From IMG/VR virus record IMGVR_UViG_3300024258_001044, positions 62,001 to 126,000 of that record: 64,000 nucleotides of DNA. The stretch is one strand, 5' to 3'. This DNA comes from a virus. A program made the position numbers and the translations under genes. Each line of letters opens with the position of its first letter. Within the stretch, counting starts at the first letter, position 1. Positions 8,301 through 61,412 of this stretch are shown here, in pieces. Below the pieces are notes generated by a model that saw only the letters and a program-made list of their open reading frames with translations, was not told the DNA's origin and did not search any database.

Positions 8301-8302
8301 TC

Positions 8303-9949: not shown

Positions 9950-9971
9950 TATAACATCTTATAAGTTACTT
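9950..9971 (-). promoter_or_regulatory. module promoter P12
   Basis: Copy 12, majority subtype (TATAACATCTTATAAG then TTACTTAG), about 47 bases upstream of the chosen ATG. Confidence 0.7.
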
Positions 9972-10020
9972 AGTTGTTTTCTTTTTCACCCCCATACACA
10001 CACAGGGGAGAAAAGATTGA

Positions 10021-10056
10021 TGGAATGACTCTTGCATACATGCAATATCTGTGCCA
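10021..10056. promoter_or_regulatory. facing -24/-12-like palindrome S3
   Basis: The plus strand reads TGGAATGACTCTTGCA and the minus strand TGGCACAGATATTGCA, the minus half being the better match. It lies between the GGGGAGAAAAG box and the box that ends the next module. Confidence 0.5.
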
Positions 10057-10077
10057 GTTCCTTATCAAAAATGAAAA

Positions 10078-10116
10078 TCTTTTCTCCCCGGAACCCGGGG
10101 GCCGAAGCCTCCCGGG
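10078..10116 (-). terminator. 3' hairpin plus GGGGAGAAAA box (end of module 13)
   Basis: The minus strand reads CCCGGGAGGC-TTCG-GCCCCCGGG, then TTCCGGGGAGAAAAG, after the stop of the 150-aa gene. Confidence 0.45.
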
Positions 10117-10128
10117 GCGGGGCGGAGA

Positions 10129-10581: not shown

Positions 10582-10620
10582 GGTGGGATGCTCCGTTTGG
10601 GTGTTTCTCTCACGTCCTTC

Positions 10621-10643
10621 TATAACACCCTGTGAGTTACTTA
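10621..10643 (-). promoter_or_regulatory. module promoter P13
   Basis: Copy 13, majority subtype (TATAACACCCTGTGAG then TTACTTAG), about 40 bases upstream of the ATG at 10581. Confidence 0.7.
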
Positions 10644-10699
10644 GTTGTTTTCTTTTTCACCCCAGATTCTCAGCCAGGGGAGAAAAAGAACATATAAAC

Positions 10700-10736
10700 T
10701 GGCATGGCATTTGCAGTGTATGCAATAACCGTGCCA
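10700..10736. promoter_or_regulatory. facing -24/-12-like palindrome S4
   Basis: The plus strand reads TGGCATGGCATTTGCA and the minus strand TGGCACGGTTATTGCA. The minus half is a full match to the sigma-54 consensus, and the centre is GTGTA. Confidence 0.55.
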
Positions 10737-10757
10737 ACCTTTCGAGGCTTGAAATGT

Positions 10758-10802
10758 TTTTCTCCCCGGAGGTCCCGCTGGGCAACAGCATTTGCTGCCC
10801 AA
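10758..10802 (-). terminator. 3' hairpin plus GGGGAGAAAA box (end of RNA module 14)
   Basis: The minus strand has TGGGCAGCA-AA-TGCTGTTGCCCA with one mismatch, then GCGGGACCTCCGGGGAGAAAAAC. The second noncoding RNA ends here with the same structure as the protein modules. Confidence 0.45.
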
Positions 10803-11147
10803 CGGGGAATCGTTCTTTGCTTTCTCAGAACCGAGCCGTCGCCCGGTTAATGCTCAGAGTCACAAAGGAGGGTTTTAGGTGTCATGACCAGACCCGGCAG
10901 AGTCCTGTCTTCACGTTCCCTCACACCCGGTGCTTCATCGTTACGTTTAGTTTGCCCCAGGACTGCCGGCCCCAAGGTATCCACGCAAGCGACTACTCGC
11001 CGCCGTCCGTTTATGCCCCGGACGGTGGGCAGCGATGAACACGTCTGTGAGTCAACTTCAGCCTCTCGCTATTAGTTTCGTCGTTGTCGGTTCGCCGAAG
11101 TCGTCGGCGCCGACTCGCTGTCATGCTCAGTGCCGTCGCGGCACCCC
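10790..11147 (-). ncRNA. second structured noncoding RNA (about 360 nt)
   Basis: This segment lies below promoter P14 and lacks any minus-strand coding frame. It folds locally: GTGCC-GCGAC-GGCAC near its 5' end, the palindrome GTCGGCGCCGAC, a 7-bp CCGTCCG...CGGACGG stem, a GCGA-GTAG-TCGC hairpin, a long stem pairing CCGGCAGTCCTG with CAGGACTCTGCCGG (one bulge), and AACCG...CGGTT. One stretch (ACGACGAAACTA) resembles the tag region of tmRNA, but no tRNA-like end is present. The class is not recognised. Confidence 0.65.
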
Positions 11148-11149
11148 TC

Positions 11150-11171
11150 TATAACATCTTACGAGTTACTT
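11150..11171 (-). promoter_or_regulatory. module promoter P14 (drives second RNA)
   Basis: Copy 14 (TATAACATCTTACGAG then TTACTTAG). Like P9 it precedes a noncoding RNA, not a gene. Confidence 0.65.
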
Positions 11172-11216
11172 AGGTGTCTTTCTTTTCACCCCCTCACAAC
11201 AGGGAGAAAAGATTGA

Positions 11217-11253
11217 TGGCATGCCCCTTGCATACACTGCAAAGTCCGTGCCA
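11217..11253. promoter_or_regulatory. facing -24/-12-like palindrome S5
   Basis: The plus strand reads TGGCATGCCCCTTGCA and the minus strand TGGCACGGACTTTGCA, around the centre TACAC. Confidence 0.55.
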
Positions 11254-11290
11254 GTTCCTTATCAAGAATGAAAATCTTTTCTCCCCTTTC

Positions 11291-11371
11291 GGGCCCTCAA
11301 GAAAACACCGCTGACCTTGGAGGAACGAATGCCGACACAGGCGGCGGTCAGCGGTGTTTTCTTGAGGGCCC
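11291..11371. repeat. perfect 26-bp inverted repeat in 3' UTR
   Basis: Arms at 11291-11316 and 11346-11371 are exact reverse complements (starting GGGCCCTCAAGAAAACACCG) around a 29-base loop. The right arm's GGGCCC can instead pair with a third copy in GGGCCC-GAAA-GGGCCC, so two alternative folds compete. It lies between the stop of the 98-aa gene and a GGGGAGAAAA box, where other modules have a short hairpin. Confidence 0.75.
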
Positions 11372-11384
11372 GAAAGGGCCCGGC

Positions 11385-11681
11385 TCAGCCCTGGGTCACC
11401 TCGACTCCTTCGACCTCGGAGGCCAGCACGATGCAGCCCTTCATGAGCCGCTCGGTGTAGTCGTACCCTCCGAGCATGTTCAGCGTGGCCGGCGCGTGCT
11501 TCGCGTCGAACTGAAAGTCCTCAAGGACCTCCAACGCGAGCCAAACATCATCGAACCCCGTCCCCCGCATGGTTGCCCGTCTCATGGGCTCCACCGGCGC
11601 GACCTGCGGGTTCTCGGCCGGGCCATCGTAGTAGCACATGCGCCCGGGAAGCGCGGCGCTGGGCATCTGGATCAGAAACAT
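11385..11681 (-). CDS. hypothetical protein (98 aa)
   Basis: The start at 11681 has a GGAGG ribosome site and sits about 24 bases below P15. The protein begins MFLIQMPSAALPGRMCYYDG and has an alpha/beta pattern with an acidic C-terminus (VLASEVEGVEVTQG). It is a single-gene module whose 3' UTR holds the 26-bp inverted repeat. The family is unknown. Confidence 0.7.
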   Translation of the reverse strand: MFLIQMPSAALPGRMCYYDGPAENPQVAPVEPMRRATMRGTGFDDVWLALEVLEDFQFDAKHAPATLNMLGGYDYTERLMKGCIVLASEVEGVEVTQG

Positions 11682-11704
11682 TGGAAGAACCTCCGGTGTC
11701 TTGA

Positions 11705-11727
11705 TATAACATCCTGTGAGTTACTTA
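11705..11727 (-). promoter_or_regulatory. module promoter P15
   Basis: Copy 15, majority subtype (TATAACATCCTGTGAG then TTACTTAG). Confidence 0.7.
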
Positions 11728-11782
11728 GTTGTTTTCTTTTTCACCCCAGCCCCAGGGAGAAAAAAGGCACACGCTCACACGT

Positions 11783-11819
11783 TGGCACAGTTGTTGCATT
11801 CTCTGCAAAACCCGTGCCA
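11783..11819. promoter_or_regulatory. facing -24/-12-like palindrome S6
   Basis: The plus strand reads TGGCACAGTTGTTGCA and the minus strand TGGCACGGGTTTTGCA. Both halves are strong matches to the -24/-12 consensus with 16-base spacing, around the centre TTCTC. Confidence 0.6.
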
Positions 11820-11830
11820 GCATTTGAAAT

Positions 11831-11874
11831 GTTTTTCTCCCCGCTCCCCGGCAGGCTGGCAACCTGCCGGGGAG
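11831..11874 (-). terminator. 3' hairpin plus GGGGAGAAAA box (end of module 16)
   Basis: CTCCCCGGCAGG pairs with CCTGCCGGGGAG (12 bp, seven-base loop) and is followed on the minus strand by CGGGGAGAAAAAC. The hairpin arm itself repeats the GGGGAGAAAA box. Confidence 0.5.
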
Positions 11875-11878
11875 AAAA

Positions 11879-12109
11879 CTATCGCGTGCCCCACTTAGCC
11901 AGGATTCGCGCCTTGCCCGTAAGCTTATGCGCGACCGCACGGTGCCGACCGTCCCGAACCTTCCACCGGCCATCGGGCAACGCCTGGACCTTGATCGGAG
12001 GCATTTCGACCCCTTCAAGAATCGCGTTCGCACACGAGAGCGTAGCCGGGTTCAGGGGCATCCGGTCAATGACCAACTGCCCCACGGGGATCCATCCTTC
12101 ATGCCGCAT
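11879..12109 (-). CDS. ParB-like nuclease-domain small protein (76 aa)
   Basis: The start at 12109 shares bases with the upstream stop (TGATG). After MRHEGWIPVGQLVIDRM comes an alpha/beta region ending in WKVRDGRHRAVAHKLTG, which matches the GxHRxxAxxxxG signature of ParB/Srx-type domains. These act in DNA partition, as DNA-nicking enzymes, or in phage regulation. Only the core domain is present, with no helix-turn-helix, so a role in partition is not shown. It is the last gene of the P16 module. Confidence 0.65.
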   Translation of the reverse strand: MRHEGWIPVGQLVIDRMPLNPATLSCANAILEGVEMPPIKVQALPDGRWKVRDGRHRAVAHKLTGKARILAKWGTR

Positions 12110-12531
12110 CAACCCATCCTCTGGAGCTTGACGATCCTCGCTCCGAAAATCTCGTGAAGCAGATCGCGTGCCTGTGCGTTCGGCTGGCCCGACTTGGTGA
12201 ACAGTGAAGCCGGATCGATGTCCCGAACCCGCTCCACCGTCCTGCCATCTTCCGCGAACCAAATCACGCGGCGCGTGAGATCCTCGGGAGGCGTGTTCGC
12301 ACGCTTGATCTCATCAAAGGCCGCATCAAGCACCCACCCAATCAGATCCTCATCATCCGGGTTAGGGTTCAGCCGGTTCCAATTGAACCGCGAAAGCTGA
12401 TCGGCGGTCGTGCAAGCGTTCATCCGCTTGATCAAGAGCCGCCGTCGCCATCCCCGCCAGTCCAGCCGCCGGATGATCTCAGCCTTTGCGGCCGGAATAT
12501 CAATCAGATCCTCAATCTCGTGCGGCTCCAT
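12109..12531 (-). CDS. hypothetical helical protein (140 aa)
   Basis: An AGGAGA ribosome site precedes the ATG at 12531. The protein begins MEPHEIEDLIDIPAAKAEII, has a basic patch (WRGWRRRLLIKRMN) and is predicted helical. It is coupled to the ParB-like gene by a one-base stop/start overlap, so the two products may act together. The 80-base gap before it holds a GC hairpin but no promoter copy. The family is unknown. Confidence 0.65.
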   Translation of the reverse strand: MEPHEIEDLIDIPAAKAEIIRRLDWRGWRRRLLIKRMNACTTADQLSRFNWNRLNPNPDDEDLIGWVLDAAFDEIKRANTPPEDLTRRVIWFAEDGRTVERVRDIDPASLFTKSGQPNAQARDLLHEIFGARIVKLQRMG

Positions 12532-12612
12532 GCGCGTCTCCTTTCCTGCCCCTAATGCCCCGTCCGCCGAAGCGGTACGGGGCGGGGTTCGGGGGCCGGA
12601 GCCCCCTTTGTC

Positions 12613-13389
12613 TCAGCCGATCATCTCACCCTGCTCTCCGGTCCATTCCAACAGTTCGCCGTAGCTCTCCGGCAGGCGAGGGGCGTCCACGGGCGTCCAC
12701 CCGTGACCCGTTCGGGCGTGGCTGATCTTCGCCGACAGGTAGCAGTATTTCCCGCGCCCCCGCACGAGCGGCGAGATCGCGATCGCTCCGCCCTCGCCGA
12801 GCGCCACGATGGGCGGACGCTCGCCCGTGATCGCCTCCAGGCGATCAAGCTGACCGCACGCGGCCATGTTCGGGATCTCGGAGTGGAGCAGCTTATCCCA
12901 CCCCACCGTCAGGTTCGGGCGGCGCTCCCGCAGAATGCGGCCTGCGTCAAAAGCGCAGCGCCACCACTGCCCGCTGGCGTCCTGCCAGAACTGGATCACC
13001 GGGAGCAACGTCCCCCGCTGCGCCGCAAGATGCATCCCGAAGTAGTGCTCAGCCTTGGAACCTGAGATGATGGAGTTTCTCGGGGCGTGATCGTCGCCGA
13101 TGTAGTCTGACACCTTCAGACTAATCCCGATCTCCAGCCCATCGAAAATCCCGTGAACGTCAAAGAACACCTGACCGCGCCCGGCCTTCGACTCTTTCGC
13201 CGGAGTAATCAACAGCTTACCGCCGCCGTCCACCGGGTTCAGGTTCCCGTCCCGACCCATACGGTCGGGGAAAGTAGCGGAGACGAACCCATTGGGCACG
13301 TCCCGCGAGTAACTGACATTCTGTCCAGTCGCGGCGAGTGCCGCGTCGATCACCATATTGGTCAGTTCGACCCGTGAACCCTTACCCAT
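12613..13389 (-). CDS. hypothetical protein (258 aa)
   Basis: This is the first gene of the P16 module. The ATG at 13389 (MGKGSRVELTNMVIDAALAA) is preferred because the in-frame ATG at 13428 lies within a few bases of the promoter TATA. The protein has a central Trp-rich part (IQFWQDASGQWWRCAFDAG) and looks like a mixed alpha/beta enzyme or structural protein. No motif allowed a family call. It is the largest protein in region 1. Confidence 0.7.
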   Translation of the reverse strand: MGKGSRVELTNMVIDAALAATGQNVSYSRDVPNGFVSATFPDRMGRDGNLNPVDGGGKLLITPAKESKAGRGQVFFDVHGIFDGLEIGISLKVSDYIGDDHAPRNSIISGSKAEHYFGMHLAAQRGTLLPVIQFWQDASGQWWRCAFDAGRILRERRPNLTVGWDKLLHSEIPNMAACGQLDRLEAITGERPPIVALGEGGAIAISPLVRGRGKYCYLSAKISHARTGHGWTPVDAPRLPESYGELLEWTGEQGEMIG

Positions 13390-37714: not shown

Positions 37715-38332
37715 TTATCCACACTTACTATAGCCGCAATCTTGACAGACCGGGCATCCACCTGCATAAATTAGGTTTGGTGATTGACAATCATCACACT
37801 TGCCGCCGCCGTCCGCGCCGTCTTCGATATACTTCTTTAATACCCGAGAAACTACAGCCGAAAAGGAAAACATATCAGAATACTTATCTTTCTTTAATTG
37901 TTCGGCCATGTATTGAATAGGAACACCGTGCCTTAAGCACATCGATACCATCCTTGTCAAAGACCCATTATTTGGATTGTCGAATACCGAAACCACATCT
38001 TTGATTAAGATTTCGCTGCCCTCCTCTCCAAATCTAAGGTCGTATCTTGCATTAACGCTTTTTCTCGGGTTTTTTAGCAAAGTACCAAATTTATATTTCT
38101 TGGGGATCTCAATATTACTTGAGAGTCCACCAATTACTTCATAAGGTCTCTCATGAAGTAGTCCAATCAAGATGGTCCAGTCTTCACCCTTGATTGTCGC
38201 CCTATGTATTTCACACTTTAAACCTAACGGTCTCTTAGGAGCCTGACTATCCCTGATCTTCTCTTGATCAGACTCACTTAGACCTTTAACTCTCCAACCT
38301 ACAATTTTCTTTTCAATCTTAACTGTCTGCAT
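37715..38332 (-). CDS. nrdJb: class II ribonucleotide reductase C-terminal subunit (NrdJb-like)
   Basis: It corresponds to the C-terminal part of B12-dependent reductases: a central region around TRMVSMCLRHGVPIQYM, then a zinc ribbon CDDCQ...CPVCQDCGYSKCG (residues ~180-204). In one-chain enzymes this tail carries the redox-active cysteines that regenerate the active site. Its start overlaps the stop of the large subunit by one base, as in the split NrdJa/NrdJb enzyme of Pseudomonas. Confidence 0.85.
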   Translation of the reverse strand: MQTVKIEKKIVGWRVKGLSESDQEKIRDSQAPKRPLGLKCEIHRATIKGEDWTILIGLLHERPYEVIGGLSSNIEIPKKYKFGTLLKNPRKSVNARYDLRFGEEGSEILIKDVVSVFDNPNNGSLTRMVSMCLRHGVPIQYMAEQLKKDKYSDMFSFSAVVSRVLKKYIEDGADGGGKCDDCQSPNLIYAGGCPVCQDCGYSKCG

Positions 38333-41300
38333 TACATATCCCCATACATGCCTTCTTTCAGCGCATCAAACAAATTGGCCGCATTGTGAAGCTCACCATC
38401 GTACTCAATTGTATCACTTCCGGATACTGTTATTTCTTCATTATCTGCGAGGATGAAAACGTATTTCGTATTTTCGAGATCCTCTTTGCGAACAAGGACA
38501 CCTGAAAACGCCTCAGGATTATACCTGAAGGTGGTGATGCCCTTAAGCCCCTTCTCCCATCCCATCATGTAGATCTTTTTGAAATCCTCGAATGGGTAAT
38601 CAGTAGGAACATTTGCCGTCTTAGATACGGCAGAGTCAACCCACTTCTGAATCTTTGCCTGGATGTTGATATGATCTTCGACAGATAGGTCATTGGAAAC
38701 CCTCCAATGACTTGGTAGCTCTCTGTCACCATACATCTCTATCCATAGATGGTATTCAAGACTTCTTACGATTTCCTGAACCTTCGTCTTCTTTCCATGC
38801 TGCCTGAAGTTTCTTGCGTACTCATCAGTGAAGCTCGGCTCAACACCATTGCTACAGTTGTTACCCCAAGTTAAACTCATGGTTCCTGTTGGTGCAATGC
38901 TGGTAGCGTGAGAGAATCTGAGACCATGCTCAAGAATCTCCTGCTCTAATCCATGCCTTAAATCGTCATCAAAGGTTGATAACAACCTCTTCATATATCC
39001 TGAATCAATAGCGTTCTGTCTGGACACTATCGTGTCGAAAATGGGAGCATGTCCTTTCTCTTGCGCAAGCTCCATGTTCATAAATAGAGATACTTTTGCA
39101 ATCGTGTATGCAATCTTATCTGCGAACGCCTGAGAAGCATCATCACCATAAGACATGCCGAGCATGTTAAATACAGTGCCAAGACCTGTGAAGCCTAAGC
39201 CATGCCTTCTCTTCTGGAGAATCTGCTCTCTCATTTCAGGCAGAGGCAGGTTGTTGATCTCAACAACGTTGTCCATCATCCTTGTAGCGACAGCAATATC
39301 TACTTCGAAAGCCTCCCAATCAAAAAAGGAATCATCCGCAAATTTATTCATCACATATGGAGCTAAAATCATTGAAGCCAATAGGCAACTTGCATTGGCA
39401 GGTAAAGGCTGTTCGCCACAATTATGAACATAAATGCCGTTTGCATCAAAAGCGTTTATACCTGGAACCTGTACGTCATAAACGTCGCAAATGCCTCCGT
39501 CACTAATTGATGATATCGTTACTGCGTAACTTTCTTTGTTTAATTCTCTTTTGTAGTCACTTAATAAGTTTACTAATTTAGAATGCTTAGTGTCATCAGC
39601 AAAGCCAATCAATCTCTCAAAAGTTTTTAAATTACTTTTGCTAATAACTAATTCGTGCTGAGCTTTTGTCTTATAAAGTTTCTTTCCACCTTTCCCGTTA
39701 GGCAAAAGTGACTCTCCACTTTCTCGCCTGAATTTGTAAATCTTAGATACGATTCCAAATCTAAGAAGCATTCTTTGCACAGCTTCCAAGGTCTCTAAGT
39801 TACTTTGAGCAAGCCTTACAGAAACTCCTTTGCTTTGATCGCCTTGGACCGAGCCATCTGCATCAAAAAGCCCCCTTAAGAACCCGGCAGAAAAGGCATG
39901 AGATGCTTTCTCCATTTTAGGAGTAATAAACTTGTTTTGATTGCTCATTCCAAATTCATGCGCCAAATCTCTTATTCCAGACAACTTAAGCCTATACTCA
40001 TTTCGGCCAGCTATTTTGTGCCAACCCTTAAAATCTGCTCTTTTCTTAAGGTGTCTTATCGACATATTTACACGAGACATAATAGACTCATAACCATTTT
40101 CATTGTCAGAACTCCAAACGGACAGGATAGCAGAATCTTTCTTCAGCGTTCCGTCCCCAACGAGTAGCCCCATCAGGTATCCCTGATCTACAGAGTAGAC
40201 TCCATTCATTTTGTCTGTTCCTAACCAGTAAGCAGAATCACTATGATCATGAAGAATAACTTTATCACCAATCTCAATTTCGCCTGCTTCTTTCCAATTG
40301 GAAATAATTTTATCACCATTATTGGAGCTTACTACCATAACTTTATGATTAGGAGTTAATCTTAATTTGAAGCCTTCTTTGGTTTCTAAATTCAAAACCG
40401 ATTTATATCCGGTTTTAAAAAATCCTTCTGATTGATATGGCTTTCCGTTCACCATCAAGGTGCATTCTTGACCTATAAGATCGGAAACCTGCTTCGGGCC
40501 TTCTTCTGTATGAACCCAGGTATCAGAAGGTACACATGGATTCGTAGCTCTAATAACTTCACAGAACCAAAGGATATTATCTCTGTTCACCCTATCGATA
40601 AGAATGAATCCAGGCTCGGCGAAATTGTATGTTGATGTCATAATCTTATCAAAGAGTTCAACGGCTCTAAGCACCTTGAATACTCTCTTCTTAAAGATAG
40701 TTCCTACTTCGCAGTTACCGCTAAGGACTTCAGTGTGATCTGCTGCATAACTGAAGTAATCGTATTCAGGATATCTGAAAGGGATATCTCCAGCTTTCAT
40801 CACTGCAACCTCATCTGCACCAATTTCCTCTATGTCACATTTCTCGCAACGCTCCCAGAACCATAGCTTCCACATGGCATCATCTCTAACAGCCGTCATG
40901 AAAGCATCTGTGATTAAAACAGATAAGTTAAAATATCTAAGAACGCCATCTTCTCTTTTACAAGTGATGAAATTCTCAATCTCTGGATGCTGAATGTCGA
41001 GGCAACCCATTTGGGCTCCACGTCTGCCACCGCCGCTCATAACTGTGCTGCACGTTGCATCGAAGATTTTCATAAAAGAAATGACGCCAGAAGTCTCTGC
41101 TCCTGCGCCAAATACATACGCGCCGCTTGGCCTAATTGGGCTGAAATCATAGCCCACACCAGCGCCTGTGCGCAGTGTCATCGCAGATTCTTTGGCGGTC
41201 TGCATGATGCCATCCATCGAGTCAGGGATCTGCCTGAGCACCGTACAGTTAATCGGGCTGGCGTCTCGCTTGAGGTCGCCAGCGCCGACATTGGCCATAA

Positions 41301-41514
41301 TACGTCCGCCACCTGCGAACTTACCTTCTAATAGAATTCTGGAAAACTCAACTTCCCATTCTTCTGGTTTTGGCTCAAGTGATGCTAACCCTTTTGCGAC
41401 TCTCAAACAGGTGTCTTCAGGTGTTAGATCGATGGGTTGTCCTTCGGAATCACGAAGCCTATACTTACCAGCTTCTCCGCCCCATACTTCTTGAGAGATA
41501 TTTTGAATAAACAT
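38332..41514 (-). CDS. nrdJa: class II (B12-dependent) ribonucleotide reductase with intein
   Basis: It reduces ribonucleotides to deoxyribonucleotides using adenosylcobalamin. The 1060-residue frame is 688 residues of reductase plus a 372-residue intein. The exteins join as ATNP|CGEQPLPANASCLL, the active-site motif, and later have the IAPTGTMSLTWGNNCSNG loop. The class II enzyme works with or without oxygen and depends on host cobalamin. It is paired with the NrdJb tail gene. Upstream 250 bases hold a terminator and presumably the promoter. Confidence 0.93.
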   Translation of the reverse strand: MFIQNISQEVWGGEAGKYRLRDSEGQPIDLTPEDTCLRVAKGLASLEPKPEEWEVEFSRILLEGKFAGGGRIMANVGAGDLKRDASPINCTVLRQIPDSMDGIMQTAKESAMTLRTGAGVGYDFSPIRPSGAYVFGAGAETSGVISFMKIFDATCSTVMSGGGRRGAQMGCLDIQHPEIENFITCKREDGVLRYFNLSVLITDAFMTAVRDDAMWKLWFWERCEKCDIEEIGADEVAVMKAGDIPFRYPEYDYFSYAADHTEVLSGNCEVGTIFKKRVFKVLRAVELFDKIMTSTYNFAEPGFILIDRVNRDNILWFCEVIRATNPCVPSDTWVHTEEGPKQVSDLIGQECTLMVNGKPYQSEGFFKTGYKSVLNLETKEGFKLRLTPNHKVMVVSSNNGDKIISNWKEAGEIEIGDKVILHDHSDSAYWLGTDKMNGVYSVDQGYLMGLLVGDGTLKKDSAILSVWSSDNENGYESIMSRVNMSIRHLKKRADFKGWHKIAGRNEYRLKLSGIRDLAHEFGMSNQNKFITPKMEKASHAFSAGFLRGLFDADGSVQGDQSKGVSVRLAQSNLETLEAVQRMLLRFGIVSKIYKFRRESGESLLPNGKGGKKLYKTKAQHELVISKSNLKTFERLIGFADDTKHSKLVNLLSDYKRELNKESYAVTISSISDGGICDVYDVQVPGINAFDANGIYVHNCGEQPLPANASCLLASMILAPYVMNKFADDSFFDWEAFEVDIAVATRMMDNVVEINNLPLPEMREQILQKRRHGLGFTGLGTVFNMLGMSYGDDASQAFADKIAYTIAKVSLFMNMELAQEKGHAPIFDTIVSRQNAIDSGYMKRLLSTFDDDLRHGLEQEILEHGLRFSHATSIAPTGTMSLTWGNNCSNGVEPSFTDEYARNFRQHGKKTKVQEIVRSLEYHLWIEMYGDRELPSHWRVSNDLSVEDHINIQAKIQKWVDSAVSKTANVPTDYPFEDFKKIYMMGWEKGLKGITTFRYNPEAFSGVLVRKEDLENTKYVFILADNEEITVSGSDTIEYDGELHNAANLFDALKEGMYGDM
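39421..40536 (-). other. intein in NrdJ (residues 327-698)
   Basis: It begins with Cys (CVPSDTWVHTEEG), has a block-B-like TPNHKVMVV, two LAGLIDADG motifs (YLMGLLVGDGT and GFLRGLFDADGS) and ends with IYVHN followed by Cys of the extein. It is thus a full splicing domain with a homing endonuclease, inserted at the invariant NP/CGEQ site. Confidence 0.93.
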
Positions 41515-41737
41515 TAAAACAGTACTCCTACATCATAAAATTCTCATTGGTATCGTGCTCATTGTAGCACTTACACTGCCAAGATTAATAGAGTTTGGGT
41601 ATATGAAAAGCTGGTTGCAAGGCCCTTTAAGGAATCTGTTTTCATATATTCAAATCCAAATCTTTTTGCGAATCAAACAATTTGGATATGTTTTTGTCTC
41701 TACAAATCTGACTATTCTTCTCTAATAAAAGTTGAAA

Positions 41738-41767
41738 AAGCCACCCAACTTGGGCGGCCCTTTCCTT
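41738..41767 (-). terminator. terminator after diadenylate cyclase gene
   Basis: The minus strand reads GGGCCGCCCAAGTTGGGTGGCTTTTTC, a hairpin (GCCGCCCAA with TTGGGTGGC, one mismatch) with a U tail. It closes the PrkA-to-DAC operon. The rest of 41,515-41,737 shows no gene and probably carries the NrdJ promoter. Confidence 0.8.
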
Positions 41768-41781: not shown

Positions 41782-42285
41782 CTACTCTTGATCGTCTGAA
41801 GGATCGAACTGTTCGTTCACAGCACCGTCTTTCCATTTTCGCACGATGCGCGTCTCTTCGGACAATGTAAAGGTAGCTAATATATCATCCCGCTTGGAGA
41901 ATGAGGCAGCAGAGATATGTCTGGTGCCTGCCCCCTCGGGGATGTCTAAGGTGGGATCGTCCACGGTTAAATATATACCAGATCCTAGTATCTGCCCACT
42001 ATCGCTGATAACAATTGCTCCATCATCACCACTCCGCACCATGTTAATGAACTCCTCTTCGTGAGCACCAACAACATTGATGTATTTTTCAAGCTTGCTT
42101 CCTCCGAATTGTCTCATCCCGTCGACTTGGGTTTTAAAAACTCCAAATACAATAAGGGATCCTACGAATTCATCCTTCATCAATAGCTCTTCTGAGATAT
42201 TGCGGAGGTTCTGAAAAACTCTTTTCTCAATTCGTTCACGCGATACGGATAATTGATATGCAAAATCTACAACAGGTTCAGTCAT
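41782..42285 (-). CDS. diadenylate cyclase (DisA_N/DAC domain)
   Basis: It is predicted to make cyclic di-AMP from two ATP. DGAIVISDSGQIL (DGA at 88-90), GAGTRHISAASFS (GTRH at 120-123) and TLSEETRI (141-144) match the DAC core, aligning with the DGA, GTRHRAA and SEETG motifs of DisA/CdaA. The RHR signature is RHI here, which could alter ATP handling. At 167 aa it is a lone catalytic domain with a helical lead and acidic tail, no membrane or DNA-binding part. It is the last gene of the PrkA/YeaH/SpoVR operon, overlapping SpoVR's stop. Confidence 0.85.
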   Translation of the reverse strand: MTEPVVDFAYQLSVSRERIEKRVFQNLRNISEELLMKDEFVGSLIVFGVFKTQVDGMRQFGGSKLEKYINVVGAHEEEFINMVRSGDDGAIVISDSGQILGSGIYLTVDDPTLDIPEGAGTRHISAASFSKRDDILATFTLSEETRIVRKWKDGAVNEQFDPSDDQE

Positions 42286-44858
42286 TACTTTTGTTTCCTT
42301 CTAATAATTGTGAGACCTTTTTCTGGATCGACATCACTGAAACCTTCCTCATCGAAAGTGAAGTGGAATGGATTGCCTGACGTGTCCCACGTCTTCAGGT
42401 CAATCACATTGCCCCATGCCTCATATAGATACTCCATAACCTTTGGAAGATGCTTATAAGCAATCGTTCCAATCTCTGGGCTTCCATGCTCAAGCTCAAG
42501 ACTCATAGATGTTACGTTAGTAATCGCAATCATAGGAACTCTGTAGTTATGAAGCTTGCTGGTCATTGACTCAACAATGTCCTTAACCTTATTGCTCTGA
42601 ACCTGAACGTATTGGTTTTTACTTCTCGGGTCCCTTCTCTGAACATAGGTGAACATCTTAAGCTCATCAACAATCTCCTGAGTGAGGTAGATGTTCAAGA
42701 ATGATACATCATCTTCTTCCTCGCATACCTCAAGAATCTTCTGAAAACCTGTAATGGTTGACTCACCTTTCTCGTATAGCTCATCCCATCTTTTCTTAAT
42801 GTCGTTGAAAATCGTAAAGCCTAAGAAGTATGGGTTCATATTGAATGGATCACGTCCTGGCTGAACAACTCTCTCATGAATCTTAACGAAATCAATATAC
42901 TCTGCTGCGGAAAGCATCTCCTCGCCCATGACATACATGAGTTCTGCATGAATATAGCTTGCAAAGCCTTCGTTCATAATCTTTGTGATGTACTGAGGGT
43001 AGAAGTAAAAGGATTCTTCTCGGATAATAGAGAGGACATCACGCTCCCAATCTTCAAGCTTAGAAGAGTAAGTCATCAAGAACCAGTTGATATCAATCTC
43101 TTTTGCAGGTGGGAACTTCGTGTTAACCGTTACCTCTTTTCTCTCTGGACTTTTGATTCCAAGTACATCTTCGAATTCACCAATCTTACGACTCTTGACC
43201 ACCTTTCTTCTGCCAGGGTATTTCTCACGGAATAAACCTTTATGCCAATCAATATTCTTCTCAACGGAGAGACCAATATCCATGATGCGTTCAACTCTTT
43301 CTAAACCATACCTCTCAATATAGCCTTCGATTCTTGCAGCACGTTCAGCAGCATGGTAAACCATCTTCCTGTCTGTCTGCTTGAATAGGTAGTTATTCTT
43401 GAAGAATGCGCTGTGTCCGTAACAGTTATGAGCTACAATTCCGCCATATAGCGCAAAGCTATGATCTCCTTCCACTTCCATGTCCCAAAAACTTTGAATC
43501 TTTTCTGTAGAGAATGAGCGAACCCATTCGATTTGTCCAGCTATATATTCATCTTTCTTTGCAGAGAAAGACCAAGTTCTGGTCGGAGCATATTCAGTCT
43601 CATATCCAACTATGTTATATAACTCCAAGTTGTCTTCGCCACTTAAAACCAATTCATAAGAAGTTTTTCTTTCCCCCTTTATATCAAAAGATTTCCTGTT
43701 TCTTGAAGAAATAGATGAAAAAATTCCAAATGAATTCAGAAGAAATTTTAACTGATTTGCAAGCAGATCGCTTGTGGTAGAAAAAGAAGAGCTTCTATTT
43801 TCATTATCAAAATAACCATCACCTTCGAAAAGCCCTCTTACAATTCCCTTTTTAAACTCAAGAGGAACATTGTTTGCAAATACAAAATCAGGTATCTTCT
43901 TGTTCTCACAACCTTTCCCACAGCTTTCTTCAAGCCATTTTCCAATCCATTTGTCAGAAAAATGAACAATGCCAGAATTATCACGCTCTCTTTTGGATAC
44001 ATGTACAGGAAGTTTCGGAGATAACTGATTAATTGCATTTGAAATTGCTGCATGATAATCGTCTTCATCCTTGTGCATCGCAAAATGAACTTGTGTTCCG
44101 CTAAGATAGCCTTCAGCAATATATAGCCCGATCATCCTTCCGGATTCTTCATTTAATTTTAAAGTATATCCATTGCTTTCATGGAAAGCTTTTTTCCTAA
44201 ACAGCCTATCATTACTCTGAATATTTTCGATTTCAATTAAAATCTCTTCGAGAGCAGACTCCTCGTTCTGAGAAGCCTTAGGGTAAATGATTCTATCATC
44301 TTCCCTTATTTCAGAAACTTTTACCCAAGATGGGCCAACATCAGTTTCTACATAAATCTTATGATCAGATGTAAACCTATAAACCTCATCGGAACCCCTT
44401 ACTTTCAATTCAGTAATTTCTTTTTTTCTTGCAGTCTCTTTACACCAGTTAACAGTAGAAATTCTACCTTTATGTGTAAATACTTTATCGCCCTTTTTTA
44501 CTTCAGAGATGGGCTTTACTCCATCCAAAGTAATAATTTTAGCATCCTCATGGACACAGTGAGCGATGACCATAATCTGTGCAATGTCAGGGTTGGTATC
44601 AAGAAGGAAAGCATAAGATGGATTGTTGTTAAGGATTAGCTCGTAAACCTTTGACATACCCATTTCACCATTAAGCTTCTGGTATTTGTAACTCTGACCG
44701 TATGTCCAGTGTCGTGCTCTGGTCGGAAGACCATAGCTCATTACCTCAAGCATGACCTCTTCAGGCACAACTTCCCAATTGATTGGAAAATAATCTACGC
44801 CCATCTCATCACACTTCTTCTGACACCATTTGTCTACTTCGATTAATCTTTTTTTCAT
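42285..44858 (-). CDS. SpoVR family protein with intein
   Basis: It is the phage form of SpoVR/YcgB, a protein linked to spore cortex in Bacillus and to stress or starvation in Enterobacteria; its biochemical role is unknown. The 857-residue frame is 479 residues of SpoVR plus a 378-residue intein. The N-part has KWCQKKCDEMGVDYFPI and the C-part GFASYIHAELMYVMG, AAEYIDFVKIHERVVQPGRD and NPYFLG, all typical. It overlaps YeaH upstream and DAC downstream by four or fewer bases, so the operon is tightly coupled. Confidence 0.93.
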   Translation of the reverse strand: MKKRLIEVDKWCQKKCDEMGVDYFPINWEVVPEEVMLEVMSYGLPTRARHWTYGQSYKYQKLNGEMGMSKVYELILNNNPSYAFLLDTNPDIAQIMVIAHCVHEDAKIITLDGVKPISEVKKGDKVFTHKGRISTVNWCKETARKKEITELKVRGSDEVYRFTSDHKIYVETDVGPSWVKVSEIREDDRIIYPKASQNEESALEEILIEIENIQSNDRLFRKKAFHESNGYTLKLNEESGRMIGLYIAEGYLSGTQVHFAMHKDEDDYHAAISNAINQLSPKLPVHVSKRERDNSGIVHFSDKWIGKWLEESCGKGCENKKIPDFVFANNVPLEFKKGIVRGLFEGDGYFDNENRSSSFSTTSDLLANQLKFLLNSFGIFSSISSRNRKSFDIKGERKTSYELVLSGEDNLELYNIVGYETEYAPTRTWSFSAKKDEYIAGQIEWVRSFSTEKIQSFWDMEVEGDHSFALYGGIVAHNCYGHSAFFKNNYLFKQTDRKMVYHAAERAARIEGYIERYGLERVERIMDIGLSVEKNIDWHKGLFREKYPGRRKVVKSRKIGEFEDVLGIKSPERKEVTVNTKFPPAKEIDINWFLMTYSSKLEDWERDVLSIIREESFYFYPQYITKIMNEGFASYIHAELMYVMGEEMLSAAEYIDFVKIHERVVQPGRDPFNMNPYFLGFTIFNDIKKRWDELYEKGESTITGFQKILEVCEEEDDVSFLNIYLTQEIVDELKMFTYVQRRDPRSKNQYVQVQSNKVKDIVESMTSKLHNYRVPMIAITNVTSMSLELEHGSPEIGTIAYKHLPKVMEYLYEAWGNVIDLKTWDTSGNPFHFTFDEEGFSDVDPEKGLTIIRRKQK
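43425..44558 (-). other. intein in SpoVR (residues 101-478)
   Basis: It starts with CVHEDAKIITLDG, has TSDHKIYVETD and the endonuclease motifs MIGLYIAEGYLSG and IVRGLFEGDGYFDN, and ends ALYGGIVAHN before a Cys. The insertion interrupts VIAH|CYGHSAFFKNN, the most conserved stretch of the family. Its sequence is distinct from the NrdJ intein. Confidence 0.92.
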
Positions 44859-46024
44859 TTCTTTTCAGCCTTTTTTGACACACCATTAACGTTAAAGAAT
44901 TGCTTTAGAGCATCGAAAACGCCATCTTTAGAGTTAACTCTTAAGGATACAAATCGCGTTCTTGAAATCTCATTATTGAACACGTTGTAAAGCTTATCTT
45001 CTTCCTTGAACCAAGGTAGCTCCGCTTGCTCGTCCGGCACAATTTCACCATACCCGATTGCAGTGCATAAAGGCAATAGCTCCCTTACAAGACCTACGCA
45101 CTCTCTGTTATCCTGCATCCAGTTGTCGCCATCGCTGAACTCAAAAACGTAATTGTTCCAATCATCTGGCGGATGGTTATTCTTGATATGATCAAGAGCG
45201 AACTTGAATGCAGAACTGCACTTAGTTCCACCGCTTGCCGAAATCGTAAAGAACTCTTCTTCTGTAGTTTCAAATGCAGTTGTATCATGAGCAATGAAGA
45301 TTAACTCAACATTTTGATAACGTCTTTTTAGAAACTGAACCATCCAGAAGTAGAAGCTCTTAGCAATATAGGTCTTCTTGTCATCCATAGAGCCAGATCT
45401 ATCCATCATGATATAGACCGCAGCATTTGAGACGTACTCAGTCTCCTCTTCCCACACCTTATATCTGAGGTCTTCGTTATGAAAATCTCCAACGTGTGGA
45501 TTTCCAAGCGCAGCATTCCTTTTGATGTTCTGAAGGAGAGTTCTTTTGATGTCAAGATTTGGGAAGATTCCCTTTCTATCGATTGACGAAACTTCTTCAT
45601 GAACTACTTCAATCTGACTGGACTTGTTTGGCTCCATCCATGGAAGATTTAACTCTTCCATTAGCATGTTGACCAACTCATCTACAGAGATTTCAGCTTC
45701 AAAAATTCTCTCGCCCTCTTGGTCTCCTGGGCCGCCAGGAGCAGCTTGTCCCTTCTTAACTTCATAGTTTTTTCCGGGGACTACGTCCTGACCTTGACCA
45801 ACCTGAGAGTCATCTTTCCATTTTCCATATTTGAACGTATGCTTATCAAGAAACCTTACAGGAATCTTAACTTTCTTGGAGCCTGAAGAACGAATGATGT
45901 TATACTCTGTGATTACGTCTCGCCCATGCTTTCTGATTGCTCTTTTGACAAGCTCTTCATGTCGATCAGAATCTCTTTTACCACGTTTCTTCAGTTTCCA
46001 AATATCAGAAAGACTATCAGACAT
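44855..46024 (-). CDS. YeaH/DUF444 VWA-domain protein
   Basis: It is a homologue of E. coli YeaH, which is encoded beside the PrkA kinase YeaG. An N-terminal basic part is followed by the von Willebrand A domain: VYIMMDRSGSMDDKK (DxSxS metal site), a middle ASGGTKCSS and a late FSDGDNWM. 389 residues compares with 427 in E. coli. The family is thought to work with PrkA and SpoVR in adaptation to stress; the mechanism is not known. Confidence 0.93.
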   Translation of the reverse strand: MSDSLSDIWKLKKRGKRDSDRHEELVKRAIRKHGRDVITEYNIIRSSGSKKVKIPVRFLDKHTFKYGKWKDDSQVGQGQDVVPGKNYEVKKGQAAPGGPGDQEGERIFEAEISVDELVNMLMEELNLPWMEPNKSSQIEVVHEEVSSIDRKGIFPNLDIKRTLLQNIKRNAALGNPHVGDFHNEDLRYKVWEEETEYVSNAAVYIMMDRSGSMDDKKTYIAKSFYFWMVQFLKRRYQNVELIFIAHDTTAFETTEEEFFTISASGGTKCSSAFKFALDHIKNNHPPDDWNNYVFEFSDGDNWMQDNRECVGLVRELLPLCTAIGYGEIVPDEQAELPWFKEEDKLYNVFNNEISRTRFVSLRVNSKDGVFDALKQFFNVNGVSKKAEKK

Positions 46025-46149: not shown

Positions 46150-46500
46150 TTAATGTACAGCTAAGATTCCGTAACAATCTTTCGTATCTTTAACAGATAT
46201 AACCAACTGAAACGGGTCTTGCCCAAGTTCTGCACGGTACTCTTTGAGAAAAGATACCAAACGATTCACAGTCTCCTCTTCGGTTTCATCTGTACTAAAT
46301 GGTTGCCCAAGTTCTATGATATCAATGAAGCTATTTTGGAAAGAAAAGCTTCCATCCTCATTACTATATCCATTGAAACTTTGCCCTAGATATATAGGGA
46401 GCGCCTCCAAAGGAACATTATCAAGCGTAAAGAAATCCTCGGAAAGTTTTAAATTCTCCAGCCTTTGTTTTATCATAGCATATATTTTCAATATATTCAT
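46150..46500 (-). CDS. hypothetical protein (116 aa)
   Basis: It begins MNILKIYAMIKQRLENLKLS (start may be the second Met) and is acidic, alpha/beta. It lies within the PrkA-YeaH operon and has no counterpart that I know of in the bacterial cluster. The function is unknown. Confidence 0.65.
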   Translation of the reverse strand: MNILKIYAMIKQRLENLKLSEDFFTLDNVPLEALPIYLGQSFNGYSNEDGSFSFQNSFIDIIELGQPFSTDETEEETVNRLVSFLKEYRAELGQDPFQLVISVKDTKDCYGILAVH

Positions 46501-46512: not shown

Positions 46513-46866
46513 TTACTTACAACATCCATTAACCCAAAGTACGAATCCAATCGAAAGGGAATCTGCCTCTTCACACGGCAAACAAGAAAGCGAGAATTCA
46601 TAATCAGAAAGATCTGTCTCTGAGCTTTTCACTTCAAACATAATCCGCTCAACAGCCTCTTTAACCATCGCGTCAAACTCACCATCAGGATCTTTTGCAT
46701 ACACGATTCTGGTCCTCATGGGATTCGCCGCAAACTCTAATGAGCAAGCAACAAGCAGAACACCTTGAGAAAATCTAATGTCGTCACCAAACTCATCGGT
46801 AAGGGCTTCCCTCAGCGCCTCTACTGGCGCCGAGGTAACCTCATTCTTCATGATGCCGAAGAACAT
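46513..46866 (-). CDS. hypothetical protein (117 aa)
   Basis: Its start overlaps the stop of PrkA (TAATG). The sequence begins MFFGIMKNEVTSAPVEALRE, with a Cys-rich end (LSCLPCEEADSLS...NGCCK). No family was recognised. It is a second phage-specific insertion between the kinase and YeaH. Confidence 0.65.
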   Translation of the reverse strand: MFFGIMKNEVTSAPVEALREALTDEFGDDIRFSQGVLLVACSLEFAANPMRTRIVYAKDPDGEFDAMVKEAVERIMFEVKSSETDLSDYEFSLSCLPCEEADSLSIGFVLWVNGCCK

Positions 46867-48797
46867 TAGTTTCTTGCCATAAGTGAGCTAACGTATCTAA
46901 GCAATTCGTTGGCACTTCCGACAGTGTAACCGTGATGGTCCGCAAGGGTCTCGATGACAACATTGATCTTCTTAAGCTCTTCCTCATCTGGGTTTCTGGA
47001 ACTAACAGTGATTCTGATAACGTCACGTCTCTCGTCAAAAAGCTGCTTCTCAAGCGCTTCCTTGAGTCTTGGGTGCTCCTTGTAGGAAAGGGTACCATCG
47101 TTATCTCTTGCCGAACGAAGCATCTTACGATACACTTCCTGCCTGAAAGATCTCTTGCCAGAGTCGGAGATTCTAATCTTCTCTTCGACGCTTCTCATGA
47201 GTCTCTCATCTGGCTGAACATCATTGCCCCACTCATCCTCAAGCATATGACCGTCAAGGTATGCCTCAACATGGTCAAGGTAGTTCTTGAGAAGGTTTTC
47301 GATCTCGCTCTCGAAGTTAACGAAGAATGCCTTCTGAACATCGTTCATTGCCATCTTGGTGTATTCTTCAATTACAGCAGTAAGGATACCCTCTAATCTG
47401 TTCTGTTCTTTCTCGTCAACCTTAGGGTTAGATTCAAGCCCATCTCTAAGGGATCTTACGATATCAACCGGAGTGATGTAACCCTTCTTGCCAGAAGCAA
47501 GGATGGAAGAGATTCTGTTGATAACGTATCGTGGAGATACTCCAACCATTCCTTCATCTTTGAATTCTCCCTTGAACTTAGGTACTTCGTGCTTAGAGAA
47601 TCCATCAACCTCATCACCGTTGTATAGTCTCATCTTGTTCAGAGTGCTAAGCCCCTGGTGGTCAGATTCAATTAGTCTCGAAAGGATAGAGAACATTGCT
47701 GCGCACCTTAACGTATGTGGTGCAATGTGAACACCCTTGAAATTCGCCTGACGAATGAGCTTCTCGTAAATCCTTACTTCCTCATTGACACTGAGGTTGT
47801 ATGGGAATCGTAGAACAATAGTTCTATCATGGAGTGCCTCCATCTCATCTTTCCCAAGGAATCTCTTGTACTCAGTCTCGTTAGTGTGAGCGAGAACAAA
47901 TTCGTCCGCATAGATAAGCGGGAACCTTCCGGTCTTGATGTTCTTTTCCTGAGCAAGGGTGAGAAGAACGTAAAGGAACTTCTGATCAACCTTGAGCATC
48001 TCAACAAATTCCATCATGCCACGGTTAGCAACCATGAGTTCGCCATCGAACTTGTAAGCTCTTGGGTCAGACTCTGTGCCGTACTTACCAATCTTACTAA
48101 GATCAATGGAGCCAACAAGCTCAGAGATATCCTGACTCTTCTTATCGGAAGGTACGAAAGTACCAATGCAGTTTCTTGCCCTTTCGGAGATGAAAATCCT
48201 ACGAACCGGTAGCTCCATGATGTTTCCACCATACTTCTCTTTAAGAATAGCCTCCATGTAGGGAGATAGTTCTCCCTGGACGCGAATACCATACTCCTCA
48301 CGCAGCCTACCTCTAAGCTCCATAGGGATTGCCGTCATTGGATCTTCGTTCATCGGCGAATCGGAGAATGCGTATAATGCACCGTCCTCTGTCTTGGAGA
48401 AAGCCTCAAGCCCTCTCTTCAAAAGGATGGCCAGTTGGGACTTGCCGGATGATGTTGGTCCGTATACAAGAAGGATTCTACGACCGACTTCACTGCCTGC
48501 TGCGGCAGCCCTAAGGTACTTCATAAACTCTTCGATCTGATCCTGCACACCGAATAGGTCATCTTTGAAGAAATTATACTGAGTTACCTCATCTTCTTCG
48601 TCCGTCTCAAAACCATGGCTCTCAATCATTCTAAGAACTCGTTCGTGTGCTCCCATGTGAATAGATGGGTCATCGACCACCATCTTTAAGTACTCTCCAA
48701 GGGTACCTTCCCATGCTTCCTGCTTACTCTGCTCCATGTGGGAACTTACAAGCTCAAGTAATGAATCTGCTGATGTCATCTGTTCTCCGTTAGTCAT
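46866..48797 (-). CDS. prkA: PrkA serine protein kinase
   Basis: At 643 aa it is the same length as E. coli YeaG (644). An AAA-type part has LLVYGPTSSGKSQLAILLK (Walker A, ~108-126) and the C-terminal PrkA domain follows. Bacterial PrkA is a serine kinase or AAA protease-like enzyme active in sporulation or starvation, acting with YeaH and SpoVR. It heads the operon that ends with DAC; its start overlaps the FmdB-like gene. Confidence 0.95.
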   Translation of the reverse strand: MTNGEQMTSADSLLELVSSHMEQSKQEAWEGTLGEYLKMVVDDPSIHMGAHERVLRMIESHGFETDEEDEVTQYNFFKDDLFGVQDQIEEFMKYLRAAAAGSEVGRRILLVYGPTSSGKSQLAILLKRGLEAFSKTEDGALYAFSDSPMNEDPMTAIPMELRGRLREEYGIRVQGELSPYMEAILKEKYGGNIMELPVRRIFISERARNCIGTFVPSDKKSQDISELVGSIDLSKIGKYGTESDPRAYKFDGELMVANRGMMEFVEMLKVDQKFLYVLLTLAQEKNIKTGRFPLIYADEFVLAHTNETEYKRFLGKDEMEALHDRTIVLRFPYNLSVNEEVRIYEKLIRQANFKGVHIAPHTLRCAAMFSILSRLIESDHQGLSTLNKMRLYNGDEVDGFSKHEVPKFKGEFKDEGMVGVSPRYVINRISSILASGKKGYITPVDIVRSLRDGLESNPKVDEKEQNRLEGILTAVIEEYTKMAMNDVQKAFFVNFESEIENLLKNYLDHVEAYLDGHMLEDEWGNDVQPDERLMRSVEEKIRISDSGKRSFRQEVYRKMLRSARDNDGTLSYKEHPRLKEALEKQLFDERRDVIRITVSSRNPDEEELKKINVVIETLADHHGYTVGSANELLRYVSSLMARN

Positions 48798-58978: not shown

Positions 58979-60421
58979 TTATCTCTTTCTTCTTCGGTCA
59001 ATCAAAGAACGCCTTGTGCCACCTTGTAGCTTACCAAAGCCAGACTTCTTGCCTCGAATCTTTCTGTGAATCTCATCCTTAACGGAAGATACCTTGTTCT
59101 CTTCAAGGTCAAGAGTCATTGCGGAAGCTCTCTTTCCTTCCTTAGCTGCCGCAGCAGCAGTCGCGTCCTTGCTTTCCTTCTTAAGATTCTCGATTCTATC
59201 CTGAGGAAGACCAAGTCCTGCAAACCAAGTATATACCCTTACATTCTCAACACCCTCCTGCGCATAAACGCCTCGATAGATGTTGGCATCCTCAGTCTGC
59301 TCAGAGATAACGTGGAACGCATAATCAATGTTGATTGCCGGAAGGTTCTCTAATGCTTCCTCAGAACCTACGATGATAACGCCACCGGTTCTGGTCTGTG
59401 CAAGATCGAATCCTTCTGCGAGCATGTTGCTATTAAGAGAGTCCATCATTGCTTCTGCAATGCCAACCTCATCCATGTAATCTTCAACTTCAACCATTCC
59501 ATACACCGAGCAGTCACCGCAAGAAATTACCTTACCAAAGTCGGACGGGTCCATAGAGGTGTACTTGGATGCCTGAGAAGTAAGGCTGTTGAACAAGTGG
59601 ATAGGCTCAACGATTGCGTTGTTAGCCGTGCTCCAGAACTGAGACTGACCAAGCCCGCCATAGATCTGCTCGATACGTGCGTTATCTGCTACGACCAAAC
59701 AAGACACCTTATCGTCTGCTGTCATTCTTGCAAGCTTTGCAAGAGTCTCAATGGAGTTCTTCTTAGACTGAGCATCTTCAGTCGCTTTTGGAAGCACGAA
59801 GATAAGCCCAAGAGGCATGCCGGTCGAATAGCAAAGCTCAACCATTGTATCAACGGAGCTTGAGCCAGTACCTCCTCCACCAGACATTGCAAGGAAAAGC
59901 ATGTCATTTCCTTCTGCAATCCTATCAATGAACTGAGCACATACCTCTGTGTTATCAGAGAAGATTTCTCGGCCGAGATCGAGGTCCTTACCTGTACCAC
60001 CAAGGCTTCCCTCAAGCAATAGCTTCTGGGTTGGAAGCACGTCAACGAACCTAAGATCCTGTGCGGATGTATTGATGACGCCTACGTCATACCCTAACTT
60101 GTGAAACTGCTCAGCAAGACGGGAACCAGCCTGTCCAACTCCTACAACTCCAATATTAATGCTAACCTCTTGCTCTTCAACTAATTCAGGCACAGGTTCC
60201 TCCTTTTTTACTTTTGTTTTCTTCGCCTTAAGCCTCGCCAGAATGTCCGGATCGAGCTTACGCTCCGGCTCTGGTGCCACCTCAGCCGGTGTTTCGGCCG
60301 GTGTTTCGGCCGGTGTTTCGAATGCGTCCATAAGTGCTGCGTTTTCATTTGCGACATCTTGTTCGGACTTTGGTTTTACTGCTGCGTCTTTTTCACTTAC
60401 GCTTACTTTGTATTTAGCCAT
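58979..60421 (-). CDS. FtsZ/CetZ-like tubulin-family GTPase (480 aa)
   Basis: The start at 60421 (MAKYKVSVSEKDAAVKPKSE) has a GAGGA site and overlaps the upstream gene. After an acidic, repetitive N-terminus (PAETPAETPAE) comes the GTPase: GVVGVGQAGSRLAEQF (with GQAG as in CetZ/tubulin), SGGGGTGSSSVDTM tubulin signature (~205), and a domain with N-terminal Asp contacts. The tail is Lys-rich. It could form filaments that move DNA or virions, as in phages with PhuZ-like tubulins; polymer formation is inferred. Confidence 0.88.
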   Translation of the reverse strand: MAKYKVSVSEKDAAVKPKSEQDVANENAALMDAFETPAETPAETPAEVAPEPERKLDPDILARLKAKKTKVKKEEPVPELVEEQEVSINIGVVGVGQAGSRLAEQFHKLGYDVGVINTSAQDLRFVDVLPTQKLLLEGSLGGTGKDLDLGREIFSDNTEVCAQFIDRIAEGNDMLFLAMSGGGGTGSSSVDTMVELCYSTGMPLGLIFVLPKATEDAQSKKNSIETLAKLARMTADDKVSCLVVADNARIEQIYGGLGQSQFWSTANNAIVEPIHLFNSLTSQASKYTSMDPSDFGKVISCGDCSVYGMVEVEDYMDEVGIAEAMMDSLNSNMLAEGFDLAQTRTGGVIIVGSEEALENLPAINIDYAFHVISEQTEDANIYRGVYAQEGVENVRVYTWFAGLGLPQDRIENLKKESKDATAAAAAKEGKRASAMTLDLEENKVSSVKDEIHRKIRGKKSGFGKLQGGTRRSLIDRRRKR

Positions 60422-61412
60422 TGATGATATCCTCATACGCTTGTTTGATTTGATTATATATTTCGTCTTCGTTAACAAAGGCCAATGGGATAAATCCCCT
60501 GTCCCTTTTTAGCTTATCTACTCTGCATAGGTAGTCTGCTTCAACTTCGTTCATCGGTGCAGCATCTGTGGTAATGATTTTGCAACCGCAAGCTTGGGCC
60601 TCATATAAACTCAAACCCAGCCCCTCCTTTTGAGAAGGTGCCAATACGACATCAGCTTCTCTATATATTTTACCGATTTCGTTCCTATTAAGTACCCTAT
60701 CTATATGTAAAATATTAGTATGGTTATCAATAGCAATACGCTCTGTTGAGCCAGTGAATATAAGCTTTGCCTTGGGATTATTTACCCTAAGAAACCTGTT
60801 AAAAGCAGCCACAACCAAGTCCGTATTCTTTGTGCTATGGTCTGGATTCAGACTTCCTGCATGATAGAATGTGACTATATCGTTCTGCTTGGATTCCGGC
60901 GGATAAAAAATGCTCCGGTCTACAAGGTCAAAGTTTACCCGTTTGGCTTTGGGCATGTCAAATACCTGCTTAGTTAAATCAGTTAGGCACCAAATCTCAT
61001 CGAACACATCGTAAGACCCGTTCTTGACATATGAAGGAGTTACCCATTCAACCATCGGAACATCAATCATCTTAACCTTGTCTCGTGCTTTAATCTTTGC
61101 CACCCATTGCCCTTTCTCCATAAGAGTCTCAAAAGAAATGACTGTATCAATCTTATATTTAATGATTGCGTTGTGCATCAGGTAGCTAACAGGACGCTTT
61201 GCCGTGAATGGCAGGATGATATCGCGCTTAAACTCATCTGGGTTCTTCTGGCTGGGATAAACTCTCCTATAGACTCTTCCATCCAAAATATACTTAGCCT
61301 TAGGAGCGTAGACTACAACGTGCCCTTCGGACAGTAGCTTATCTCCAAGATTTTTAGACAAATAGAAAAGTCCGGATTCGTAGCAGTAGGTCTTGATAAG
61401 GTATCGTCTCAT
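60414..61412 (-). CDS. glycosyltransferase (GT4/GT-B-like)
   Basis: The C-terminal half carries the GT-B donor-binding pattern: VVLAPSQKEGLGLSLYEAQA and CGCKIITTDAAPMNEV. It transfers a sugar from a nucleotide donor. The 332-aa protein overlaps the GT2 gene upstream and the tubulin gene downstream. The acceptor could be phage DNA, a virion protein or host envelope. Confidence 0.88.
   Translation of the reverse strand: MRRYLIKTYCYESGLFYLSKNLGDKLLSEGHVVVYAPKAKYILDGRVYRRVYPSQKNPDEFKRDIILPFTAKRPVSYLMHNAIIKYKIDTVISFETLMEKGQWVAKIKARDKVKMIDVPMVEWVTPSYVKNGSYDVFDEIWCLTDLTKQVFDMPKAKRVNFDLVDRSIFYPPESKQNDIVTFYHAGSLNPDHSTKNTDLVVAAFNRFLRVNNPKAKLIFTGSTERIAIDNHTNILHIDRVLNRNEIGKIYREADVVLAPSQKEGLGLSLYEAQACGCKIITTDAAPMNEVEADYLCRVDKLKRDRGFIPLAFVNEDEIYNQIKQAYEDIING

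Follow-up and report, generated by a model that had tools for sequence, protein, structure and literature searches.

The minus strand of the window (that is, the whole 64,000-nucleotide stretch of viral DNA analyzed here, part of a 236-kb virus record in IMG/VR) encodes, at positions 41782..42285, a stand-alone protein of 167 aa with a diadenylate cyclase (DAC) domain (ATG start, TAG stop), and we regard it as reasonably probable that this is a soluble giant-phage diadenylate cyclase that makes c-di-AMP and acts together with a stress cassette of PrkA, YhbH and SpoVR. Its membership in the DAC-domain family is well supported, as the ORF scores 44.2 bits against Pfam PF02457 (E 1.7e-11, residues 37-155), the sole Pfam domain that it holds, at a curated cut-off of 27 bits, so that the DAC motifs within it are no chance match; eight phage homologues reach 46-66 bits against the same model. 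Both the sequence and the alignments place a DGA motif at residues 88-90 (42016..42024, minus strand), GTRHI, for which the canonical form is GTRHR, at residues 120-124 (41914..41928, minus strand) and SEE at residues 142-144 (41854..41862, minus strand), and the residues by which GTRH and SEE of the DAC family are recognized (G120, T121, R122, H123, S142, E143 and E144) are all in place, albeit as LSEE and not (V/I)SEE. An earlier note on this DNA had read from the letters a phage-encoded protein with the DGA, GTRH and SEE motifs of c-di-AMP synthases and with RHR changed to RHI, all of which stands: the three motifs are present, the Pfam DAC-domain (DisA_N) HMM search proposed there ends above the cut-off, the gene belongs to a virus record and has homologues in viral contigs, and the triplet does read RHI.

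The structure prediction against CdaA/DisA, likewise proposed there, points the same way, in that the AlphaFold2 model (pLDDT 77, pTM 0.76), built from an alignment including seven added CdaA rows, yielded 50 listed Foldseek matches in the PDB that were all DACs (CdaA/DacA, DisA, DacM; TM about 0.6). Because of those CdaA rows, the fold match supports the assignment but is not fully independent of it, and a model made from three sequences without them was poor; a PDB profile search from the sequence alone, however, likewise puts DACs on top, the best solved structures being CdaA/DacA. A PDB match named “Panoptoo PanS synthase” was set aside as being at chance level (E 0.72).

As for the characterized enzymes, the window protein resembles bacterial CdaA/DacA and CdaS in its DAC fold and its DGA, GTRH and SEE motifs (the phage homologue L079 also matches annotated CdaA and CdaS genes in tblastn), yet it is only 19-25% identical to the Firmicute CdaA rows, has RHI for RHR, is set apart by its PrkA/YhbH/SpoVR neighbors and, unlike CdaA, has no N-terminal transmembrane helices; a charged helix at its N-terminus leads straight into the DAC domain, and 167 aa leave no room for a membrane domain. 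With DisA, it shares the DAC domain, as seen in both the Foldseek and the profile matches, but not the C-terminal linker and the HhH DNA-binding domain. Archaeal DacZ (Haloferax volcanii type) is its best NCBIfam match, at 52.9 bits against an equivalog cut-off of 430 bits for model NF041371 and over profile positions 121-268 only, the N-terminal region of about 120 aa being absent from the window protein; DacZ of Haladaptatus, furthermore, carries RHH and not RHI. The best profile match of the phage DAC is to the small haloarchaeal plasmid diadenylate cyclases (hhalign E 3.7e-15 vs 5.4e-11 for CdaA), which are likewise single-domain proteins (of about 185 aa) with the pattern G[TS][RK]H[LM]SA, six of them showing GTRHM, GTKHL or GSRHM. 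Their branch in the tree, however, is very long, their genes mostly adjoin Trk, antiporter, magnesium-transport or MscS genes, whereas the window DAC adjoins PrkA/SpoVR, and the N-terminal half is diverged between the two. As the complete RHR motif of DisA, CdaA and CdaS is absent, the window protein is filed here by domain and not under any of these characterized enzyme classes. A 3-sequence phage profile run against 299 genomes (the phylum of one Clostridia bacterium) gave two weak matches only, and thus no recent donor is evident in that phylum.

What the earlier note missed, while being right on the DAC family, is the genomic context, namely an operon with PrkA, YhbH and SpoVR and a linkage that holds across the family. 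All on the minus strand, a PrkA family AAA+/kinase-like protein (46866..48797), which is likely the first cassette gene, is followed by two small ORFs of no family (46513..46866 and 46150..46500), a YhbH/DUF444 protein with a VWA-like domain (44855..46024), which overlaps the start of the next gene by 4 nt, a SpoVR family protein split by an intein with a LAGLIDADG-like domain (42285..44858) and, finally, the DAC. The SpoVR stop codon and the DAC start codon share one base (TAATG), a Shine-Dalgarno-like AGAAGG lies 5' of the DAC start codon (42297..42302, minus strand), and a strong intrinsic terminator (41734..41764, minus strand; a 14-pair stem and then a T run, z = -3.9), the hairpin of which begins about 17 bases past the DAC stop, marks the DAC as the last gene of the operon. 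From this arrangement, translation of the DAC is probably coupled to that of SpoVR. The PrkA-YhbH-SpoVR run as such is shared with E. coli (yeaGH/ycgB) and with the Thermus phages YS40, TMA, MN1 and phiLo, the latter being devoid of a DAC.

Step-wise scans of IMG/VR gathered a DAC family of 17 contigs and 13 distinct sequences (pairwise identity 34-79%), in which SpoVR is found upstream of the DAC in every contig and directly adjacent to it in 16; in L079/L174, a SLOG (YpsA) gene stands between the two. Phage DAC copies differ by a dN of about 0.21-0.33, well below their dS of about 0.9-1.5 (in pairs for which both could be estimated, with dS near saturation). A sigma-70-like gene (Pfam regions 2 and 4) directly follows or overlaps the DAC in 9 of the 17 contigs; the window has no sigma-like gene after its DAC, and a 395,127-base viral contig, to part of which the 20.5 kb around the DAC are 100% identical (the phage genome thus probably being at least 395 kb), holds elsewhere a single region-4 match only. 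Scanning for PrkA yielded 123 loci; 80 of these were retained, and in most of them YhbH and SpoVR lie alongside; among these PrkA-cassette loci, the DAC is confined to the contigs nearest to the window phage, the cassette alone being common in large phages, and eight other cassette-bearing phage records that were checked (the Thermus phages and four long uncultured ones) showed no DAC, from which it follows that the cassette does not need one. The DAC is missing from L073 and L117, which contain the cassette together with a SLOG gene and a sigma-like gene. The SLOG (YpsA) genes (L079 14172-14675, L073 14733-15353 and L117 15740-16327) lie 3' of SpoVR, with or instead of the DAC, and stand between SpoVR and the sigma-like gene. 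The most canonical-looking phage DAC is that of L079 (66 bits to Pfam, RHK, HDGA kept). The tree puts it on the branch that leads to CdaA and separates it from the remaining eight phage sequences, which is why the phage DACs are not claimed here as one clade.

In Listeria CdaA, the ATP site is made up of ten residues, i.e., L31 (of GALI), D71 (of DGA), L88, G101, T102, R103, H104, S122, E123 and E124 (PMC7288161), eight of which are invariant across the 13 distinct phage DAC sequences (P about 8e-5 for at least eight, given the proportion of invariant columns in the family itself), the D of DGA included; the G of DGA, which is not one of the ten, is invariant as well. Of the two variable positions, one has L replaced by I or M in four phage DACs and the other has the last E replaced by Q in one, which turns SEE into SEQ. 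RHI is seen in 12 of the 13 sequences and RHK in the remaining one (L079/L174). Replacing the whole RHR by AAA abolishes the activity of M. tuberculosis DacA/DisA (PMC3328451) and of B. thuringiensis CdaS (PMC4568413); the third residue of the triplet, however, is not in the list of CdaA ATP-site residues given in the PMC7288161 review, where its R and H are, and RHI therefore does not predict a dead enzyme. The suggestion of the earlier note that RHI might alter the product or the activity is weakened by this, and also by RHI being kept across the phage family while the haloarchaeal relatives have RHM or KHL. Catalysis by the window DAC is likely.

A DAC without cyclase activity could nonetheless serve as a nucleotide sensor, binding ATP or c-di-AMP and, through direct contact, regulating PrkA, SpoVR or the sigma-like protein. 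We hold this to be rather unlikely: it would fit the prevalence of RHI when the most canonical-looking L079/L174 retains a basic residue, the SEQ of one sequence, the absence from most phage DACs of the “PLH” that precedes DGA in CdaA, and the SLOG-family protein that occupies the DAC's place between SpoVR and the sigma-like gene in L073 and L117, yet D, G, T, R, H, S and the first E of the ATP site are all kept, a full set of which a pure sensor has no need, and the haloarchaeal RHM/KHL relatives are annotated as cyclases (an annotation likewise made by homology). The SLOG fold is often linked with nucleotide binding. That the altered motif makes an active enzyme release something else, be it linear pppApA, a mixed or deoxy dinucleotide, or a molecule with a different linkage, is improbable, even though most of the phage DACs have the change of RHR fixed, so that it may matter, as the third residue falls outside the published CdaA site (PMC7288161) and the ribose-contacting D and most of the adenine-contacting positions are kept.

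Less probable still is a role of phage c-di-AMP in defeating or misleading cyclic-nucleotide defence (CBASS or Panoptes-like systems), e.g., as a competing ligand. Phages do target cyclic-nucleotide signals, and the decoy in Panoptes is 2',3'-c-di-AMP (PMC12657218), but the OptE of Panoptes shifts only with 2',3'-c-di-AMP (PMC12657218), whereas the known DACs make the 3',3' form (PMC7288161), and the window DAC, which is linked to a stress cassette, has no PADLOC match, leaving the interference with such defence raised in the earlier note with no positive evidence. Canonical DACs do occur in unannotated fragments filed as phages, which are most likely host DNA; for the window gene to be a host contaminant or an assembly artefact is, however, hardly credible, given the phage-type replication, RNR and PhoH genes that flank it and the gene order conserved in several independent large viral contigs.

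Returning to a soluble, c-di-AMP-making cyclase as the favored reading, two DAC subunits would form a face-to-face dimer that condenses two ATP into c-di-AMP, like known DAC domains, the protein being produced together with PrkA, YhbH and SpoVR and, in related phages, also with the sigma-70-like protein. In bacteria, PrkA, YhbH and SpoVR make up a gene set for stress and sporulation, and c-di-AMP controls potassium, osmotic pressure and the cell wall in many bacteria, in which it is often essential. As the most likely role, the second messenger and the cassette would then jointly keep the infected cell stress-tolerant and osmotically adjusted through a long infection, with host receptors (e.g., those of potassium transport) as possible targets or, alternatively, the cassette proteins themselves; no Rfam riboswitch was found in the 395-kb genome. 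Bacillus anthracis without PrkA sporulates less well and survives osmotic stress less well, and the same study saw hardly any protease or kinase activity of PrkA in vitro (PMC13001217), E. coli yeaGH responds to stresses that include starvation and hyperosmotic conditions (PMC6299236), and osmotic control by c-di-AMP is known (PMC8573169, PMC6741144), so that placing phage c-di-AMP and the cassette on one stress/osmotic axis is the simplest reading that we infer, and one which suggests that giant phages adjust the stress or salt balance of their host during infection. As an account of the biological role it is tentative, and falls somewhat short of being probable. More doubtful is a phage second-messenger circuit, in which c-di-AMP from a PrkA-YhbH-SpoVR-DAC-sigma operon would steer the phage's own stress machinery and transcription, and not only host ions. 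A candidate for degrading c-di-AMP in such a circuit is a DHH-DHHA1 protein that four of six such phage genomes encode elsewhere; DHH is below the cut-off in these proteins and DHHA1 above it in two of the three scanned, and the protein could equally be a RecJ- or NrnA-like enzyme. The DHH-DHHA1 gene is adjoined by that of a short adenylosuccinate synthetase (PurA-like, more weakly matching PurZ; L156 404-2295, i.e., about 340-341 kb of the 395-kb contig), and the pair also occurs in two relatives. Enzymes of the PurZ type are associated with modified DNA.

If true, a phage synthase of c-di-AMP would be a direct viral handle on the turgor or stress state of the host, and the linkage of the DAC is a clue to PrkA/YhbH/SpoVR, a set of genes that is widespread in bacteria, yet poorly understood, and that may be functionally tied to nucleotide signaling and an alternative sigma factor. 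PHROGs has no family for the DAC, tblastn of a phage collection with the window DAC gave no match, and no annotated phage gene in that collection was a DAC by CdaA, DisA (a possibly inexact query) or L079 queries, the matches of which were essentially only to unannotated records, most likely host DNA, and were not used; CdaA-pattern scans of IMG/VR likewise gave no canonical DAC. A 2026 jumbo-phage review makes no mention of diadenylate cyclase or c-di-AMP (PMC13282480), and no report of a phage DAC was met in the literature searched, outside of which lie subscription papers and most preprints, so that this absence is no proof.

Several further features of the carrier genome deserve a record. 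Besides SpoVR, NrdJ (window 38332-41514) is also interrupted by an intein with a LAGLIDADG-like domain, and an insert of more than 100 aa is present in 18 of 86 phage SpoVR ORFs, a set in which some loci overlap, at several sites (around residues 80-105, 260 and 285), which suggests repeated invasion of SpoVR. The half of the 395-kb contig at about 159-325 kb (L042-L051) is rich in tRNA genes (more than 40 over about 160 kb, one of them with the anticodon CTA and thus a possible amber suppressor) and contains a tmRNA encoding the long tag DDYSFVYANAGRGFGAPVVAYA and a group I intron (L045 8170-8630); the coding pattern does not clearly point to stop-codon recoding there. Positions 1-13000 of the window are GC-rich (55-59%) and carry 15 scattered 59-nt repeats containing TATAAC...TTTTTCACCCC, which, lying between small genes, are possibly a phage promoter or processing element. 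Lastly, an FtsZ/tubulin-like protein (window 58979-60478; TIGR00065 at 46.7 bits, with a weak PhuZ match) is a possible phage cytoskeleton component.
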